Part shown: positions 10,524 to 60,070 of the stretch, one piece after another
Layout: each line of letters starts with the position of its first letter
How positions within the stretch are numbered: position 1 is the stretch's first letter
Assembly: GCA_015654475.1 (NCBI GenBank)
Contig: JAATGV010000001.1
Span: forward strand, 1 to 64,000
Source: Actinomycetales bacterium
Lineage (GTDB): Bacteria; Actinomycetota; Actinomycetes; Actinomycetales; Microbacteriaceae
Direction of reading: 5' to 3'
DNA length: 64,000 nt
Made by a program: the position numbers and the translations under genes
Notes under the pieces: model-generated
Seen by the model: the letters and a program-made list of their open reading frames with translations, nothing else
What the model was told of the DNA's origin: nothing
The model's database searches: none

Positions 10524-10664
10524 TCAACGGAGCAGAACCCGACACCCGTTCCGGAACTCCTTCGGTGAACGGAGCAAAAGCCGACAGATTTGGCCAAAAT
10601 CTGTCGGCTTTTGCTCCGTTGAGAGGGAGGGTGTAGCTGTCGGTGTCGGGTTTTGCTCGGTTGA
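10524..10664. repeat. 141-bp nested inverted repeat element, copy 1
   Basis: Four 21-bp half-sites (10524-10544, 10566-10586 forward; 10602-10622, 10644-10664 reverse) with 21-bp spacers and a 15-bp centre. The core is GAGCAAAACCCGACA or a close variant. The inner pair extends to a perfect 24-bp stem (10568-10591 with 10597-10620) around GGCCA; the outer pair has two mismatches. It starts 32 bp after the acetyltransferase stop. Copies 2 and 3 at 35765 and 59930 have identical geometry. Confidence 0.95.
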
Positions 10665-10691
10665 GGGGAGGTTGAGGGGAGGTTGAGGGGA
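10659..10691. repeat. Three perfect 11-bp tandem repeats
   Basis: GGTTGAGGGGA occurs three times in a row (10659-10669, 10670-10680, 10681-10691), starting within the last half-site of the 141-bp element. It looks like slippage from the element end. The remaining intergenic sequence to 10862 also has a pair of ~22-bp direct repeats (10790-10811 and 10849-10870, GGTGCATCAC...), the second covering the stop codon of the giant surface protein. Confidence 0.9.
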
Positions 10692-10862
10692 GCACGACGG
10701 AGGTTGCTTGGCCCGCCCGGGGCGCGCGGGGGATCGCTGTCCTGCGCGGGCCAAACAACCGGCTTACGTCGGTGGTGCGCCGTCTATGCGGTGCATCACC
10801 TTTCTCGGCGCCATGTACTTTGCGCCGCTTTGTCAGCGCTGTTTACATGGTGCATCACTTTC

Positions 10863-13800
10863 TCAGTGCTGCCGGTGCCGACGACGTGTCGCGAGTATGA
10901 GCACTAGACCAGCGAGCAGCAGTGCTACAGCGGCGGCAATACCGGCACTGACCAGTAGACCACCGGCACTGGTGTTGATCAGGGGGTCACCTGTGTCCGA
11001 CCCGCTTGGGTTCGGCACGACCGTGCTACTGCCGTCTTCGTCGTCTGGACTGGGGGTCACTGATTCCGAGGGGTCTAATACTGGGTCCGAGGGATCAACC
11101 ACAGGCTTGGATGGGCTGGGCGTGGGAGACGATACTGCGGCCGCGACCACATCGACTGTGACTGTCACCGTGGTGGCCTGACCGAGGTCGTCGAGGATTT
11201 GTACGGTGAACGAGTCTGTGCCCCAGTAGCCTGCCGCCGGCCGGTAGACGACCTGGCTGCTCGCGCTTCTGGCAGCACCGTCCACGACTTCGGCCGTGCC
11301 GTGGGATGGGTCACTGATCTGGCCGATGACCAGGTTGGTTCCGGTCGTCTTGGCGATGACGTCTATTTTTACCGCGGCGTCTTGGTTGGTTGTGGTGCGG
11401 ATGTCTTCTCCGGTTGGCGCCGCCTGCACGGTGACGGTGATCGTCGCCGTGCCGGTTTGGCTGAGTTCGTCGGTCACTGTGTAGGCGAATGCATCCGTTC
11501 CGGTGAAACCTGTTGCTGGCGTGTAGGTGATCGACCCATCGGAACCGACTTCAGCGGTGCCGTGCTCTGGGTCTGCACTTGTCACAGTCATGCCCGGCGC
11601 GAGACCGTCCAGCACGCCCACGGTAATCGGCAGTTGCTCGCCTGTACGTACCTCATGGTCTGCGGGAGCCGGTGGGGCCAGGACCGTCACTGTCACGGTG
11701 CCCTCGTCAGTCTGGTCGAGGTCATCGGTGATCGTGTAGGTGAACGTGTCCGCCCCGCTGAAACCGGCGTGCGGTGTGTAGGTGACGGTTCCGTCACCGT
11801 TGTCGGCGACGGAGCCGTTGGAGGCGTCGCCAACGGCCGTGACGGATATCCCTTCTCCTTGGTCGTTGCCGATCAGGTTGACGTCAACCGGGCGGTCCAT
11901 GGCGGTGGTTGCGGAGTCGGCCACCGCGACGGGGCCGTCAATGACTTGGATGCTGACCAGCGCGTCGCTGGATTGGCCGAGGTGGTCGGTCAGGGTGTAG
12001 GTGAATGCGTCAGCACCGACGTAGCCTGCGGACGGGGTGTAGGTGATCGTGCCGTTGTCCCCGACCACTGCCACGCCGTGCCCGGGGGCGCCGGTAACCG
12101 TGACGATGGTGTTTGCCGGATTGGGCACGGTGTCATTGGCGAGCACGTCGACGACGACCGGAGTGGCAGCGCCGGTGCGAATCGATGGGTCGTCGACGGC
12201 AACGGGCGGTGCATGAACGGTCACGGTCACGGTGCCCACCGCAGTCTGACCGAGGTCATCGGTCACCGTATAGGTGAATGAGTCGGTGCCCACGAAGCCA
12301 TTGGCCGGCGTGTATGTGACGACACCATCATCCAGAACGGCGGTTCCGCTGGCTGGTGCTGTTACGGACGTGACCGCGGCGGCGGTTCCGCCGATGTGTT
12401 CGGTCAGGTCGACTTCTACAGGCATCTCTTTGCCTGTCTCGGTTGTGACGATCTCAGCGGTGGGCGGGCTTTGCACGGTGACGGTCACTGTGCCTGTGGT
12501 GGTCTGGTCGAGGCTGTCGGTCACCGTATAGGTGAATGAGTCGGCGCCTGTGAAGCCGTCGGCTGGCGTGTATGTCACTACTCCGTCGACCAGTTCAGCT
12601 GTTCCGTGCGTCGGATCAGAGACCGCTGTGACGGCGGCGTCGAGACCCGAGGCCTCATCTGCCAGGTTGCGGCTGATAGCGGTGTCTTGGGCGGTGCGCA
12701 AGGCAACGTCTGGTGCCACTGGGCCGTTTTGAACTGTGACCGTGATGGTCGCGGTGGATTCTTGACCGAGATCGTCGGTCAGCGTGTAGCTGAAGCTCTC
12801 GGTGCCGGTGAACCCGTTTGCTGGCGTGTAGCTGATCGTCTTGTCGGCGCCGACAACGACCGCTCCCCCGTGATTCGGGGTGTCGACCGTGACCGATGCG
12901 ATCTTGTCTACGCCTGCTGGCGCGGTGGCCTCGGTGATGACGGTGAAGGACGTGGTCTGGTCACGCGCAATGGTGCGGGACAGGTTGGCTGCGGCTGGCG
13001 TCGGCTGCACTGTGACGGTCACGGTGCCGGTGGCGGTCTGGCCGAGGTCGTCGGTCACGGTGTAGGTGAACGAGTCGGTTCCCGTGTATCCGTCGTCAGG
13101 CGTATACGTCGCGACATCGTCATCAAGCTCAACCGTTCCATGTGCTGGATCAGATGTGGCCGTAACAGCCGAGTCGACACCGTCAATATGACTGGCGAGA
13201 TCGACATCTACAGCAGCATCCACACCGGTGGTCACCGCGACCGCCTCAGTGGTCGGCGGGGCCTGGAAAGTGAGGTTGACCACAGCGGATGAGATTCCAC
13301 CGATGGCGTCGACGATCTGGTACCTGAATGTGTCGGTGCCGCTGGCTCCCTCGGACGGTGTGAAGTACGCCTTACCATCGCGGATGACTGCGGTGCCCAT
13401 CTCCGGGTTCGGAGCGGTGACGATCTGGTCGAGGCTGACTTTGCCTGCTGGGGTGTCGTTTGCCAGCAGATTCAGCTGCCGTTCGCCACCCGTGATTGCC
13501 ACAGTGTAGGCGTCGGCGACCGCGACAGGGTGTGCCAACACTGTGACCGTGACGGTCGCGGTGTCGGTGGCCCTGGTCTTGTCTGTGGCGGTGTAGCCGA
13601 ACGTGTCAGTGCCGACGAAGTCGGCGGCGGGAGTGTAGACGAGCTTGCCGTCCACCTCTGCGACTGTGCCGTGCTGACCCTGTTGGTACGCCTTGACGTG
13701 TACGTCGCCATTGGGGTCGCGTGCGTCGTTGGCGAGCACGTCAATGGTGACGGCATCGCCAGAGTGGGTGGATGCCGTGTCGTTTTCGGCGGCGGTCGGT

Positions 13801-16800
13801 GGCGTGAGCGGTTCGAAGAATCCGAGGTTCACGTCGGCGGCCGCGGTGTCGAGAGGCAGCGTGATTTCTTGCTGGGTTTCGCCGGGCAGCAGACCGTCAA
13901 GCACCGCGCCTGAGGCGGTCACATCATAGCGACCTGAATGCAACCCATCCACAGAATAAGTGCCATCGGCACCCGTTGGAACCTCGATGGGCTCTTCGAG
14001 CGCGATGTCGTCGCCGTGACCTGGTCCGCCGTTGTCTGCGCCGTCAGCACCGAAGGAATACCCGTCGACGGTCACGGTTACGGGGGTGAGGCCTTCGTCG
14101 CCTTCGCTGAGATCGAACGAGTAGTCCGCGTCGTGGTAGACGGTCCCTGAGAGGCTTGAGGCCTGGGAGCGCACCGTAGCCGGAGACACGTCTTTGAGCG
14201 ACCCAGCGCTCGCGGTCGTTACGCCCGACGTCACCGAGTTGGTGATGCTTGTGGTGGTGAGCAGCCCGTGCGGCGTCACGTCGAGAGAGATGGATCCCAC
14301 TGAGTTGGGTGCGAGTTCTGGGGTCTGGATGCGCAGTGCCGTCGTGTGCTCGGGCTTCTCACTCGTCCACGTGATGCCGGTAGCGCCCGACGGGTCGGAG
14401 TCTAGCGCGGCCAGAACATCCGCAGGCTCGTCCGCGGTGTAGCTGATGCTGACAGATGGGTCGGCGGTCACCTTGTCGAGCGTGATGCTGGCTAGATCTG
14501 TGGTGCCGTTGCGGTCGCCTGAGTATGGCAGCACGTCGACGAATGAGCCGAACCCGGCGGAGGTTCCGAGTGTGTTGGACCATCCGAGGGTGTAGCTGAA
14601 CGAGTCGCCTGGCTGCGCGACAGCGGTCGAGGCACTCTTCATGACGGCAAACTCGGCCGCCGCGTTCAGGCCGAGCACATCACTCGATCTGCGAGCTGAC
14701 GCAAGGCTTAGATCGGATGGGGACTGGATGACCGAGGTCACAGTGAGTTCGGTCGGCGTCGGTGTGGTGATCGGCACGTTCACCTTGAACGAGAATGCAG
14801 GAGGCGGATCAGCCACCGTGCGTTCGCCGAGCTGCCACTCCATAGTGGCGCCGGTCTCGCCCGCGTCCATTGTGCACGGCACGCCGTCCGCGCCGGGGTT
14901 GCCCGGCGTGATGGTGACCGGAGGGGTGCTCGGCACAACTGAGTTGGACACGTAGCAGACACCGGCGGGCAGGGTCGTGGTGAGTACTATGTTGCGCGCG
15001 CTAGCGGAATCGGAACCGGCGGGCACGGAGACAGTCGGCGTGACCGTCACAGTGCGCTGTGCGCCCGGCTTGGCCAGGTCGACATCCCAGGATGTGGTGG
15101 CTCGAACTGACGCCTCAGCGGCAACAACCCGCGTGCCAAGACCGGTGTTGGCGTTCGTCTCTGGGATGTAGGTCGACTTTTTGGAGAGCTCGTCCGAGGT
15201 GAGTTGCCAGAATGTGGGGATAGGCGTTCCCACAGCAATCGACGAATCCACCCTGACAAAAGATACGGCGAAGTAGGACGTGACCCCCATGAGCGCATCA
15301 GGGTAGGCCATTCGCACTGCGTTGACCGCGCTTGGCCCACCTGCCGCTTCGAGGCTGTCGAACCAGTGCATGTCGCCATCGCCCACCTTGCCGCATTCGA
15401 CATCGCGCCGGTCGGCATCGGTCGAGACATCGAGAACCCCATACTGCACGGCTGTCGGCGTTCGCCCTCCTGTGCCGGGAGCAATAGTCGGGTCAAGACG
15501 AGTCAAGGACTGATCCCACACCCCGCATACCGTCAGATTGTGTAGATCGACACCAGCACCACCGTTGTTTGTCAGAAGAAAGCCTTGCCGATATTTCGAC
15601 CCCGGATATGCCGCTCCATCTCCCTTCGCCGTCGTCGATGCGTTCTCCCAAACGGGTACTGTGTTGGAGACTGCCGAGGTGCCTGGTGCCCACGTGCGCG
15701 CGCCAATGCTGAAGGAATTGTCCGTCCTTCGATCAACGCTTGTCGCGATTGAGTTGACGCCCGAGCTGAACGGCCCAGCTGGTTGACCCTTGGTATAACC
15801 CTCACCATAGTTCGACTGCCCGGAGACGGACAGCGGATCAAAGCCCGTGAGCCGCGAGGTGAACGACGTCGCGGCGTCAACGGGAAAGTTGCTGGCAGGC
15901 ACTCGTATGTACACGACGTACACCCCAACCCAAGCCATGTCCGAACTCAGTACAGCCCCGTCAATCGTTCTCGTGGGGTAGGAGCGTAGGTCGGAGATCA
16001 TGTTAGTTACAGTCACGGTAATCGGCGTGTCCGCTCCGCCCGGTTGTGCGCAGGTGGCCACACCCGAATCCGGGACTGCGTTCTCCGCAGTGTACGTGCC
16101 GGAGATCTTCGGTGCTGGTTGGAGAGATGTAATGCGACCAGCCTGACATGAACTGAGGATTACTCCCGAGGTCGTTGCCAGAGACTCAATCTGAAAGCTG
16201 AAGCTGGCGGCCGCGGCCTCGCGCCCCACAAAGCCCTTGACTGCATCCTTGGGAACGACAATGTCAACGCCCACGGGAATGTTGAATGCCGTTACTTCCC
16301 TGTCATCATTGAGCACGGGCGTTGCCGTAGCTGAGCGCAGCATCGTATCGAACTTCGGTGCCGCAGACAGATACACGGTCGCCTGGTTCGACGTGCGAGT
16401 GCCGTCGGTGACGCTGGTCACCAGGGCTACGCCCTGCCCGCCCAAGCCGGTAGTCATTGCCGTCACTGGGTAAGACCCCTGGCCCGACGAGACGGGGAGC
16501 GTGCACGCGAGTGTGCGACCGTCGGACGAGATGGCGCCTGCGCCCTCGACACAACCGGCAGCGGAGGCCACCACCCAGTTCATGCCGGCGGGAAGAACCT
16601 GGGTGAATGTCGTGTTGCCGCTGGTGGCAGCGGACCACACCCAGCGGTAGGCGACCGAGTCGCGCGACCGGACGATGTCGTTGTCTGGCCCGGAGTCGTT
16701 GCCCGGCTCGTCGTCGGCATCGAACGGAACCGGCGACGCCGTGCCCGTTGACAACACGTCCAGCGACAATGTCGACAGGGACGCCCGCTCGGGTGCCGCA

Positions 16801-16904
16801 AAGGCGGTCTGCGCAAGCGGCAGAAGCGTGACCACGAGGCCCACGACGAGCACGCCAGCAAGCACCTTCCATGCTCTGGAAGGTGCGCTCAAAAATTTCC
16901 CCAT
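10863..16904 (-). CDS. Giant repeat-containing surface protein (putative adhesin)
   Basis: About 2,013 residues from ATG 16904, chosen for its GGGGGA ribosome site. Residues 1-40 are a signal peptide (KVLAGVLVVGLVVTLLPLAQ...AFA). The N-terminal ~900 residues include DUF11-like segments (ASARNIVLTTTLPAGVCYV); an SdrD-B-like domain follows (SLSGTVYHDADYSFDLSEGD). Then come ten ~85-92-residue Ig/cadherin-like repeats with the motif YTP-x4-GxTGxDSFTYTVTDDLGQT, then a Pro/Ser-rich stalk, a transmembrane helix and RRRHRQH. No LPXTG sortase motif is visible, so anchoring seems to be by the C-terminal helix. Cell adhesion is inferred from architecture only. Confidence 0.88.
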   Translation of the reverse strand: MGKFLSAPSRAWKVLAGVLVVGLVVTLLPLAQTAFAAPERASLSTLSLDVLSTGTASPVPFDADDEPGNDSGPDNDIVRSRDSVAYRWVWSAATSGNTTFTQVLPAGMNWVVASAAGCVEGAGAISSDGRTLACTLPVSSGQGSYPVTAMTTGLGGQGVALVTSVTDGTRTSNQATVYLSAAPKFDTMLRSATATPVLNDDREVTAFNIPVGVDIVVPKDAVKGFVGREAAAASFSFQIESLATTSGVILSSCQAGRITSLQPAPKISGTYTAENAVPDSGVATCAQPGGADTPITVTVTNMISDLRSYPTRTIDGAVLSSDMAWVGVYVVYIRVPASNFPVDAATSFTSRLTGFDPLSVSGQSNYGEGYTKGQPAGPFSSGVNSIATSVDRRTDNSFSIGARTWAPGTSAVSNTVPVWENASTTAKGDGAAYPGSKYRQGFLLTNNGGAGVDLHNLTVCGVWDQSLTRLDPTIAPGTGGRTPTAVQYGVLDVSTDADRRDVECGKVGDGDMHWFDSLEAAGGPSAVNAVRMAYPDALMGVTSYFAVSFVRVDSSIAVGTPIPTFWQLTSDELSKKSTYIPETNANTGLGTRVVAAEASVRATTSWDVDLAKPGAQRTVTVTPTVSVPAGSDSASARNIVLTTTLPAGVCYVSNSVVPSTPPVTITPGNPGADGVPCTMDAGETGATMEWQLGERTVADPPPAFSFKVNVPITTPTPTELTVTSVIQSPSDLSLASARRSSDVLGLNAAAEFAVMKSASTAVAQPGDSFSYTLGWSNTLGTSAGFGSFVDVLPYSGDRNGTTDLASITLDKVTADPSVSISYTADEPADVLAALDSDPSGATGITWTSEKPEHTTALRIQTPELAPNSVGSISLDVTPHGLLTTTSITNSVTSGVTTASAGSLKDVSPATVRSQASSLSGTVYHDADYSFDLSEGDEGLTPVTVTVDGYSFGADGADNGGPGHGDDIALEEPIEVPTGADGTYSVDGLHSGRYDVTASGAVLDGLLPGETQQEITLPLDTAAADVNLGFFEPLTPPTAAENDTASTHSGDAVTIDVLANDARDPNGDVHVKAYQQGQHGTVAEVDGKLVYTPAADFVGTDTFGYTATDKTRATDTATVTVTVLAHPVAVADAYTVAITGGERQLNLLANDTPAGKVSLDQIVTAPNPEMGTAVIRDGKAYFTPSEGASGTDTFRYQIVDAIGGISSAVVNLTFQAPPTTEAVAVTTGVDAAVDVDLASHIDGVDSAVTATSDPAHGTVELDDDVATYTPDDGYTGTDSFTYTVTDDLGQTATGTVTVTVQPTPAAANLSRTIARDQTTSFTVITEATAPAGVDKIASVTVDTPNHGGAVVVGADKTISYTPANGFTGTESFSYTLTDDLGQESTATITVTVQNGPVAPDVALRTAQDTAISRNLADEASGLDAAVTAVSDPTHGTAELVDGVVTYTPADGFTGADSFTYTVTDSLDQTTTGTVTVTVQSPPTAEIVTTETGKEMPVEVDLTEHIGGTAAAVTSVTAPASGTAVLDDGVVTYTPANGFVGTDSFTYTVTDDLGQTAVGTVTVTVHAPPVAVDDPSIRTGAATPVVVDVLANDTVPNPANTIVTVTGAPGHGVAVVGDNGTITYTPSAGYVGADAFTYTLTDHLGQSSDALVSIQVIDGPVAVADSATTAMDRPVDVNLIGNDQGEGISVTAVGDASNGSVADNGDGTVTYTPHAGFSGADTFTYTITDDLDQTDEGTVTVTVLAPPAPADHEVRTGEQLPITVGVLDGLAPGMTVTSADPEHGTAEVGSDGSITYTPATGFTGTDAFAYTVTDELSQTGTATITVTVQAAPTGEDIRTTTNQDAAVKIDVIAKTTGTNLVIGQISDPSHGTAEVVDGAARSASSQVVYRPAAGYWGTDSFTVQILDDLGQATTVTVTVDVVAAAVSSPTPSPSKPVVDPSDPVLDPSESVTPSPDDEDGSSTVVPNPSGSDTGDPLINTSAGGLLVSAGIAAAVALLLAGLVLILATRRRHRQH

Positions 16905-17157
16905 GTCATTCCCCCGGTACATCAAGATAAAGACCCCAAGACGCTCAACTCAGATGTGAGCAGTCTCCTGATGCAAATATACCGCACCCCCGTGATCGGG
17001 GCAACTTGAGCAGGTGTGAGCAGCTCAGTGCTTACAGGCGACCCCCAGAATTCCGAAAAAAGTTCGTGACATTCCGGCCGCGAGACGCGTCTTAACTATG
17101 TCGCTGGTTCGAAGCGACCCGCATCCAATGCGGAATATGACTTGTAAGGAGTCCAGC

Positions 17158-35046: not shown

Positions 35047-35129
35047 CGGGGCTCGGGGCTCGGGGCTCGGGGCTCGGGGCTCGGGGCTCGGGGCTCGGGG
35101 CTCGGGGCTCGGGGCTCGGGGCTCGGGGC
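35047..35129. repeat. Heptanucleotide microsatellite (CGGGGCT)x12
   Basis: Nearly twelve perfect tandem copies of CGGGGCT between the ends of nhaA and the convergent acetyltransferase gene, ending 3 bp from the latter's stop. The tract is long and pure, so copy number probably varies between strains. It is outside both coding regions as annotated. Confidence 0.95.
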
Positions 35130-35764: not shown

Positions 35765-35905
35765 TGAACCGAGCAAAACCCGACAGCCCTGTCCGACAAC
35801 CACTCCTCAACGGAGCAAAACCCGACAAAATCGCGCCGAAACTGTCGGGTTTTGCTCCGTTGAGGGCTGGGCACGAGAGCAGGCTGTCGGGTTTTGCTCG
35901 GTTCA
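35765..35905. repeat. 141-bp nested inverted repeat element, copy 2
   Basis: Half-sites 35765-35785, 35807-35827 (forward), 35843-35863, 35885-35905 (reverse). The outer pair is perfectly complementary (25 bp when extended, 35764-35788 with 35882-35906), as is the inner pair (23 bp, 35805-35827 with 35843-35865). Outer arms read GAACCGAG and inner arms CAACGGAG, so each pair has its own matching variant. It begins 38 bp before the GNAT start and ends 8 bp before the ung stop. Confidence 0.96.
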
Positions 35906-50340: not shown

Positions 50341-50494
50341 GTGTTGATTCCGTCCTGGCCCCTGTGTTGATTCCGTCCTGGCCCCTGTGTTGATTCCGTC
50401 CGGCCCCTGTGTTGATTCCGTCCCGCCCCTGTGTTGATTCCGTCCCGCCCCTGTGTTGATTCCGTCCTGGTCGTGTTGATTCCGTCCCAACCTT
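50341..50494. repeat. Seven-copy 20-23-bp tandem array
   Basis: Seven units beginning GTGTTGATTCCGTCC at 50341, 50364, 50387, 50409, 50431, 50453 and 50473. The tail varies (TGGCCCCT, GGCCCCT, CGCCCCT, TGGTC, CAACCTT). A minisatellite rather than a CRISPR: there are no unique spacers between units. Confidence 0.95.
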
Positions 50495-59578: not shown

Positions 59579-59857
59579 TCAGTCGCGCTTCAGTGATTCG
59601 TAGATTTCTTTGCACTCGGGGCAAACCGGGAACTTCTCCGGGTCACGGCCGGGGGTCCACACTTTGCCGCACAAGGCGATCACTGGTGCGCCGGTGACGG
59701 CCGACTCGACGATTTTCTCTTTGCGCACGTAGTGGGCGAACAGATCGTGGTCGCCTTCTTCCGTGACCTCCTGCTGCAACTGTCGTTCGAGCACGGCCGT
59801 GCCGCCGCCCTCAAACTCGCGCTCAAATTCTTCGAATGGATCGTCAAGGCTACTCAC
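59579..59857 (-). CDS. DUF3039 protein with zinc-binding cysteines
   Basis: 92 residues. The N-terminal half is acidic (DDPFEEFEREFEGGG), the C-terminal half is the DUF3039 core: DLFAHYVRKEKI, VIALCGKVWTPGRDPEKFPVCPECKEIY with three Cys (C-x18-C-x2-C, His nearby) suggesting a zinc ribbon. The family is actinobacterial and of unknown function. It may be transcribed with the htrA gene upstream, across the 141-bp element copy 3. Confidence 0.9.
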   Translation of the reverse strand: MSSLDDPFEEFEREFEGGGTAVLERQLQQEVTEEGDHDLFAHYVRKEKIVESAVTGAPVIALCGKVWTPGRDPEKFPVCPECKEIYESLKRD

Positions 59858-59929: not shown

Positions 59930-60070
59930 TCAACCGAGCAAAACCCGACAACCGATCCGGGAGGTGTGCGTTGAGCCGAGCAAAACCCGACAGATTCGGC
60001 CAGAATCTGTCGGGTTTTGCTCGGCTCAGGAGAAGTGGATGGATGCCGGTGTCGGGTTTTGCTCGGTTGA
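59930..60070. repeat. 141-bp nested inverted repeat element, copy 3
   Basis: Half-sites 59930-59950, 59972-59992 (forward), 60008-60028, 60050-60070 (reverse). The outer pair is perfect over 21 bp and the inner pair over 26 bp (59972-59997 with 60003-60028) around GGCCA. Outer arms read CAACCGAG, inner arms GAGCCGAG. The element ends 13 bp from the stop codon of the htrA gene. Confidence 0.97.

Follow-up and report, generated by a model that had tools for sequence, protein, structure and literature searches.

A 141-bp element built from four 21-bp half-sites, arranged as two nested inverted pairs, is dispersed through the genome of an Actinomycetales bacterium of the Microbacteriaceae (GenBank assembly GCA_015654475.1). 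The element is real, occurs genome-wide and is of the REPIN/MITE type, with an unusual design in which four sites are locked in phase. With a probability of roughly one half, we read it as a lineage-specific, REPIN/MITE-like dispersed element that was mobile in the past and was then retained for a predicted protein-binding function.

Anatomy and census of the element

The window was the whole 64,000-nucleotide stretch that was analysed, at the start of contig JAATGV010000001.1. The initial annotation had placed three 141-bp copies in it, each with the order half-site, spacer, half-site, centre, inverted half-site, spacer, inverted half-site (21/21/21/15/21/21/21 bp), and both the positions and the geometry were confirmed. 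The half-sites are called L1, L2, R1 and R2 below. The features in the window are as follows:

59930..60070, no strand: element copy 3, complete, between a DUF3039 gene (minus, 59579-59857) and a trypsin/PDZ protease gene (minus, ends 60083)
59930..59950, plus: copy 3 half-site L1
59951..59971, no strand: copy 3 spacer 1, 21 bp, C at position 2
59972..59992, plus: copy 3 half-site L2
59993..60007, no strand: copy 3 centre, 15 bp, partly self-complementary (GATTCGGCCAGAATC)
60008..60028, minus: copy 3 half-site R1, partner of L2
60029..60049, no strand: copy 3 spacer 2, 21 bp, G-rich
60050..60070, minus: copy 3 half-site R2, partner of L1
35765..35905, no strand: element copy 2, complete, between a uracil-DNA glycosylase (UDG) gene (minus, ends 35913) and a GNAT gene (minus, starts 35726)
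35765-35785 and 35807-35827, plus, 35843-35863 and 35885-35905, minus: copy 2 half-sites
10524..10664, no strand: element copy 1, complete, between convergent genes, namely a hexapeptide-repeat transferase gene (plus, ends 10492) and the gene of a large Big_9/cadherin-repeat protein (minus, ends 10863)
10524-10544 and 10566-10586, plus, 10602-10622 and 10644-10664, minus: copy 1 half-sites

When the window was scanned for the geometry with no sequence specified (at least 13/21 matches in each of L2-R1, L1-R2 and L1-L2), exactly three matches were returned, which were copies 1-3 (18, 19 and 19 of 21). In five randomised versions of the window (shuffled in 2-base blocks) the best score was 11, and 1.08 Mb of relatives' loci contained no match.

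Further repeats were recorded in the window. An 11-bp tandem repeat (GGTTGAGGGGA, 3.1 copies, 10659-10692) starts in the last six bases of copy 1 R2 and exits the element. A perfect 7-bp tandem array of CGGGGCT (11.9 copies, 35047-35129) lies between convergent Na+/H+ antiporter (plus) and GNAT (minus) genes, and a 22-bp tandem repeat (6.7 copies, 94% matches) occupies 50341-50487. The large protein beside copy 1 is a giant surface-type protein encoded by a 2020-aa ORF (10863-16925), and the 899 aa scanned at its end contain many Big_9/cadherin-like repeats.

For the census, the source genome (2.41 Mb, 42 contigs, 98.3% complete) was searched with the 15-bp core pattern GAGCARAASCCGACA, allowing up to 2 mismatches, which gave 127 matches vs 25 for a reversed-pattern control. 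Places were taken from 100 of the 127 core matches, with the 1-mismatch matches on later contigs and all 2-mismatch matches missing, and a few degenerate copies may be absent. L-numbers denote the 22 stretches that were fetched around clusters of the core pattern, and the census covers these stretches and the window. It comprises at least 31 places, of which 21 are complete copies (141-143 bp) and 10 are partial or altered (L009, L011, L014, L018:7683, L021:9692, L022, L023, L024, L025 and L026); a lone chance half-site in L012 (C3:124240) was left out. Covariance model R1 matched 30 of the 31 places, including the 21 that were its building set, and missed the fragment in L018 that retains R2 only.

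Copies without a fixed spacing would, according to the initial annotation, have spoken against a defined element, and the core-pair distances establish that spacing is fixed genome-wide. In the window and the 22 stretches (up to 3 mismatches), these distances were 30, 42/43, 72/73 and 114/115, apart from 31, 32, 60, 61, 62 and 104, which occurred once each; the reversed core, searched in the same DNA at the same threshold, gave 9 matches and zero pairs. Spacers of the complete copies were exactly 21 bp in 37/42 cases and 22 bp in the other 5/42 (an outer spacing of 42 vs 43 bp). The centre was 15 bp in 21/21 complete copies, and the resulting core-to-core distance of 30 was also retained in 7 partial or altered ones. 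In L009 and L011 one outer spacing is shortened by 10 and 11 bp, to 32 and 31 bp respectively, and the surviving sites of L022 and L025 lie 60 and 72 apart. Inner half-sites surviving in the partial or altered copies (n = 14, from 7 of the 10 copies, with L022, L025 and L018:7683 left out) carried 0.86 mismatches per 15 bp, compared with 0.30 in the 84 half-sites of complete copies (one-sided p = 0.006; p = 0.025 against the inner sites of complete copies only).

Of 59 genomes searched by BLAST with copy 3, the source genome alone matched; that sample contained no second species of the genus, within which the element may be more widely distributed. Covariance model R1 detected the element in the source genome only among 299 genomes of the family (85 genera); over 396 genomes of the order, it added one lone 49-bp hairpin without outer sites. 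Both scans used stricter filters and scored 8-10 candidates per genome, and weak relatives could escape them. The hairpin (L148, G047:C257:4123-4171) comes from another family of the order and reads AGCAGGACCCGACC...GGTCGGGTCCTGCT, with letters like those of the inner stem; being terminator-like and devoid of outer sites, it was not counted as a relative of the element.

The exact geometric pattern had 0 matches in genome_contigs and viral_contigs (which may exclude the source genome and near relatives), and no plasmid or phage matched copy 3 by BLAST. Rfam reported one tRNA only in the window and no element match above the gathering score. An exact match to a named repeat family was the second outcome that the initial annotation had held against its own proposal, and these Rfam, pattern and BLAST searches produced none. 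The half-site sequence did not occur in the text of papers, and among the open-access titles and abstracts listed for REP, REPIN, MITE, palindrome, gyrase, Microbacteriaceae and actinobacterial terms, none describes the element.

Dispersal and gene context

Empty sites, proposed at the outset as a check, were sought in relatives, and two junctions (UDG-GNAT and ksgA-ispE) proved to be element-free there. In the source genome, the UDG-GNAT junction, which contains copy 2, measures 186 bp; in 20 relatives (those of the best 80 UDG relatives in which GNAT follows UDG) it lacks the element and measures 9-148 bp. The ksgA-ispE gap (names assigned here from Pfam RrnaAD and GHMP kinase matches) is 169 bp with the element, and -7 to 140 bp in 17/23 relatives; in the other 6/23 it is 307-908 bp, possibly with extra genes within. 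For this junction 29 relatives' stretches were fetched, of which 23 had both genes and 6 had no ispE match. The relatives' loci hold the four-site geometry at neither junction, and this comparison covers 2 of the 31 places. The ksgA stop codon TGA is formed by the first three bases of the element, and the next start codon follows the element after about 30 bp (UDG-GNAT) or about 38 bp (ksgA-ispE).

Two recognisable duplications were present, one whole-unit pair (L010) and one partial pair (L018). The L010 copies (13604-13744 and 14808-14948) are inverted duplicates whose spacers are 19/21 and 18/21 identical; the centre is 15/15 identical and is flipped relative to the spacers, and similarity stops within 2 bp of the element edges. 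The fragment in L018 near 7683 (R1 tail, spacer 2 and R2) derives from the copy at L018:3341-3481, with 93% identity over 55 bp.

Element-free junctions in relatives, together with a sharp-edged pair that shares its spacers, indicate that the element spread as a unit. To this extent the early suggestion of a mobile non-autonomous unit was supported, but two other traces that were looked for did not appear. In the 21 complete copies, 104 tests for target-site duplication (lengths 2-9, at offsets of -6 to +6 from the boundary) gave nothing above chance, the best being equalled by about 4-5 of 100 shuffles. Age could have erased any such duplication. The lack of a target-site duplication, and of a transposase from the four families described below, counts against the preferred reading.

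The source genome had 0 matches to the Y1 transposase domain (RAYT, Y1_Tnp, PF01797), which was detected in 5/14 control genomes, and none to the rve, IS110 or IS256 transposase domains; each of the four families was found in 4-6/14 controls. None of the genes called beside the 31 places contained a transposase domain above the Pfam cut-off. The sole IS110-type match in a neighbour was sub-threshold and lay inside a BadF-type ATPase domain. In L010 (13604-14948), the inverted element pair flanks an AbiEi-like ORF (minus, about 13773 to 14714) in a composite arrangement. This gene was considered as a mover and set aside as weak, with a sub-threshold AbiEi_1 match only and nothing in NCBIfam. 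Its C-terminus may be DUF559-like; a DUF559 search of the source genome matched five other places, not the L010 gene, and none of them at an element.

These results bear on whether the element is still active. A selfish unit might be moved in trans by an unrecognised transposase, following the logic of REPINs; only intact copies would move, which would keep the half-sites identical while the spacers drift. The edge-sharp duplication and the more degenerate state of partial and altered copies fit such activity, as do ends, compensatory changes and length-constrained spacers like those that PMC3116915, in the passages on REPINs, describes. However, the genome lacks Y1, rve, IS110-type and IS256-type transposases and the neighbours have none above cut-off, no target-site duplication was found, and a single whole-copy pair is recognisable. 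The scarcity of near-identical copies (one whole and one partial pair) counts against continuing activity, since more would be expected of an active element. We regard present-day activity as unlikely. The lack of the four transposase families favours past mobility followed by retention for binding.

The flanking genes of 30 elements (L024, which has no left gene, was excluded) were convergent in 15 cases, tandem in 12 and divergent in 3, compared with 17 convergent, 99 tandem and 31 divergent among 147 element-free gaps of the same loci. The convergent enrichment was significant (Fisher p = 8e-6; 6e-5 when the comparison is limited to the 105 gaps of 30 bp or longer), and the scarcity between divergent genes was not (p = 0.21; 0.05 against gaps of at least 30 bp). 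Genes were called with a simple codon-usage caller, which makes the orientation counts approximate, and the neighbours called to the left of L017 and to the right of L018:3341 are more than 1 kb away. A Pfam scan of the genes called on either side of each of the 31 places (62 and a few extras, the large protein beside copy 1 being covered in part) found ordinary and varied functions, for example citrate synthase, PNPase, S15, superoxide dismutase, 2-oxoglutarate dehydrogenase and Cpn10. In L013 (2802-4095), an element copy separates two tandem DUF4870 genes.

Supercoils collect between convergent genes, and placement there would also suit a site that organises the chromosome, for instance a strong site for gyrase or for a nucleoid protein. 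The dyad symmetry, the 141-bp size and the 42-bp step agree with this idea; the size presumably matches the length of DNA wrapped by gyrase. Gyrase sites are loosely specified, unlike these half-sites with their invariant letters; restriction to one lineage would be odd for gyrase, and the covariation of the arms would be left unexplained. Parts of PMC3733652 set out that gyrase targets the REPs of E. coli and that supercoiling may be relieved by REPs located at the 3' ends of ORFs. On balance a role of this type appears improbable.

Conserved half-sites, variable spacers and covarying arms

The half-site consensus, from 84 sites in 21 complete copies, is TGAACCGAGCAAAACCCGACA. The half-sites are shared among the copies but are not identical, with a mean identity of 89%. 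Positions 8-10, 16-18 and 20 are invariant in 84/84 sites, five further positions are constant in 83/84, and variation falls mainly at positions 1, 2, 6 and 12. The 15-bp centre is semi-conserved (47% mean identity). In the flanks, position -6 was C/T in 35/42 cases (p = 4e-5 uncorrected, for the best-looking of 60 flank positions).

The spacers had been described as unrelated in sequence and equal in length. The lengths are indeed held and the sequences are nearly unrelated, but some positions are constrained: with numbering from the outer half-site towards the centre, C occupies position 2 in 35/37 spacers and C/T position 8 in 34/37. Left spacers are C-rich and right spacers are G-rich. Spacer identity over all positions was slightly above that of shuffles (33.8% vs 30.9 +/- 0.4%), and at free positions, leaving out positions 2, 8, 16 and 21 and the duplicate L010 copy, there was no excess (28.8% vs 28.5 +/- 0.4%). 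Copy 3 spacer 2 and an L010 spacer are identical at 15/21 positions, which 28 of 1000 shuffles reach, and from this pair a trace of kinship among the spacers may remain.

Unrelated spacers of constant length between constant repeats recall CRISPR arrays, in which case the spacers would be captured foreign or chromosomal sequences. When the source genome was searched, however, the 42 spacers matched only their own copies and the one known partial copy; moreover, the repeats are inverted rather than tandem, the spacers carry fixed letters, and duplicated copies share spacers with point changes. Capture is a highly implausible origin for the spacers.

According to an estimate from bacterial indel rates, saturated spacers should mostly have changed length by now. 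That 37/42 are nevertheless exactly 21 bp long, and that the two large departures come to about one helical turn, favours a phased protein complex on double-stranded DNA. In the reading that we prefer, past mobility followed by retention, the 141-bp unit would have spread by insertion into intergenic DNA, mostly beside gene 3' ends, and a sequence-specific protein, predicted from the invariant positions, would recognise the 21-bp half-site. The four sites, at 42/36/42 bp centre to centre, could seat protein copies on one face of the helix, where a symmetric complex would close. Purifying selection on this complex would hold the half-sites and their phase, and the spacers would drift to saturation. 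The binder might be the mobilising transposase, or a host chromosome or 3'-end factor now using the element, or first one and then the other. Binding by a multimeric protein, already raised when the three copies were first described, is something that we infer only from the invariant half-site letters and the 42-bp step. Phasing on one helical face would follow from the spacing, and the 10- and 11-bp departures, two cases in all, are close to one helical turn.

The arms of the element vary together. Within copies, the matching of variants between L2 and R1 was equalled by 0/2000 permutations and that between L1 and R2 by 1/2000; for the four other half-site pairings 224-1398/2000 permutations were as good, that is, there was no covariation. 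In an alignment of the 21 copies 94.8% of cells pair, and 11/42 pairs have changes on both sides vs a shuffle mean of 6.0 (0/500 shuffles as high); sliding the partner by one column destroys the signal. The shuffles ignore relatedness, and the structure read from the same sequences beats the slid versions anyway. Folded as single strands, the six copies tested formed the nested hairpin (z -9.7 to -14.8). The spacers did not pair with each other across the internal loop (6.6 matches vs 7.2 when permuted, in the 16 copies with two 21-bp spacers); minimum free energy folds pair some spacer letters, no more than swapped spacers would. Nor did the centre pair within copies more than expected by chance.

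The nested cruciform that had been proposed thus has its pairing logic in the covariation of L1 with R2 and of L2 with R1, which other pairings do not have; such a structure might form in DNA or in RNA. Simple binding to double-stranded DNA does not predict arm covariation, which favours pairing of the arms, as a cruciform or as a hairpin of single-stranded DNA or RNA, or repair of one arm from the other, and points to hairpins or to template-switch correction. Both the fixed spacing and the covariation would be accounted for by a transposase that acts on hairpin ends, but the genome lacks the Y1, rve, IS110 and IS256 families.

Hairpins also raise the possibility of host-evolved bidirectional terminators or 3'-end RNA hairpins, in which the inner stem CCCGACA...TGTCGGG, followed by TTTTGCTC in both directions, would terminate the transcripts of convergent genes and the outer pair would act as a backup. 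Of the features of an intrinsic terminator, a G+C-rich stem is present, but the T-tract after CCCGACA/TGTCGGG is limited to TTTT. A terminator role would suit the enrichment between convergent genes, the strong nested hairpin of the six folded copies and the covariation of the arms. The copies that retain the inner pair only (L014, L021:9692, L024 and L026) are likewise in keeping with it, three of them lying in gaps of 131-159 bp between convergent genes and the other having no called left gene, and so is L148, the single hairpin from a different family of the order, which is terminator-like and similar in sequence. For a terminator, however, structure should suffice, yet 84/84 half-sites carry AGC at positions 8-10, past the T-tract; spacer length should be irrelevant; and two copies occupy junctions that are short in most of the relatives examined (UDG-GNAT and ksgA-ispE), close before the next start codon. 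Termination as the original function is, in our view, a doubtful explanation.

Relation to known repeats and significance

The initial annotation knew of no described element with this design. The exact design was indeed not met in our searches, but REPINs and REP dimers share much of its logic. REPINs are REP doublets that form hairpins and are mobilised by RAYT (Bertels and Rainey, 2011; PMC3116915); their ends are strongly conserved, with compensatory changes, and singlets are more degenerate. For their spacers, length and hairpin capacity matter rather than sequence. Measured against these passages of PMC3116915, the present element is alike in consisting of dispersed extragenic inverted doublets with ends conserved above the spacer, a constrained spacer length, compensatory changes and degenerate partial copies. 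It differs in having four half-sites in two nested pairs at a fixed 42/30/42, where a REPIN has one pair. Furthermore, its half-site is not itself a hairpin and no RAYT/Y1 was detected in the source genome. Folded as DNA, the half-sites of copy 2, the only copy used for this purpose, gave 0 kcal/mol (L1) and -0.6 kcal/mol (R2), no better than shuffles; one inner pair also folds as a hairpin. An inverted hairpin pair and spacers held in length over sequence were found, a palindromic repeat and a RAYT were not, and the element resembles a REPIN in several respects but does not belong to the REPINs.

GTAG/CGTC REP dimers (Di Nocera et al., 2013; PMC3733652), where REPs are palindromes of 20-40 bp, are placed between convergent or tandem genes and adjoin ORF 3' ends; the REP ends can supply stop codons, and the spacers of some dimers differ in sequence at similar length. 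As far as these sections of PMC3733652 describe the dimers, the element shares with them the convergent or tandem placement, the stop codon from a repeat end (here the ksgA TGA) and the unlike spacers of similar length; it differs in that its half-site is no palindrome. Inspection of the half-site consensus revealed no GTAG or CGTC tag on either strand.

BIMEs, which mix REP variants and short conserved linkers, are another point of comparison. Like the element, the BIMEs of enterobacteria are clustered inverted palindromic units at ORF 3' ends; the element differs from them by its one half-site type, its fixed geometry and its unconserved linkers. Bacterial MITEs, as portrayed in part of PMC2229807 (Correia/NEMIS, RUP), are similarly short and non-coding, with terminal inverted repeats and empty sites. 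The element is a short non-coding unit with terminal inverted repeats, but it has no target-site duplication, no source transposon was found for it, and its interior is saturated while its sites are constant.

The ends of Mu/Tn7-type transposons carry repeated transposase sites of about 22 bp. The element resembles them in having repeated, ordered sites at each end, and many of its L1/R2 ends read TG...CA. It has only 15 bp between its ends, however, with no cargo, and no rve-type transposase was detected.

A more far-reaching interpretation is possible, and we advance it tentatively. The element could represent a new class of binding elements on the chromosome, a dyad of four 21-bp half-sites that inherits nothing but these sites and their exact helical phase. 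At about 25-30 places, one lineage-specific oligomeric protein would occupy it and would fold or bridge DNA between convergent genes. Such a class might have arisen from a transposable unit whose transposase was lost or became that protein.

On the preferred reading, a once-mobile unit retained for protein binding, the saturated spacers and the fixed sites and spacing would form a natural record of what the binding complex needs, namely 42/36/42 bp and weak extra letters at fixed offsets, and the presence of about 30 copies in one small genome makes this requirement measurable. If the binder is a transposase, the element would be part of a system that resembles REPINs but has no detected RAYT, and the main text of PMC3733652, a large REP survey, does not name the lineage (it contains no word beginning with 'actinobact' or 'corynebact'). 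If the binder is a host protein, the element would be a domesticated mobile element acting at gene ends.
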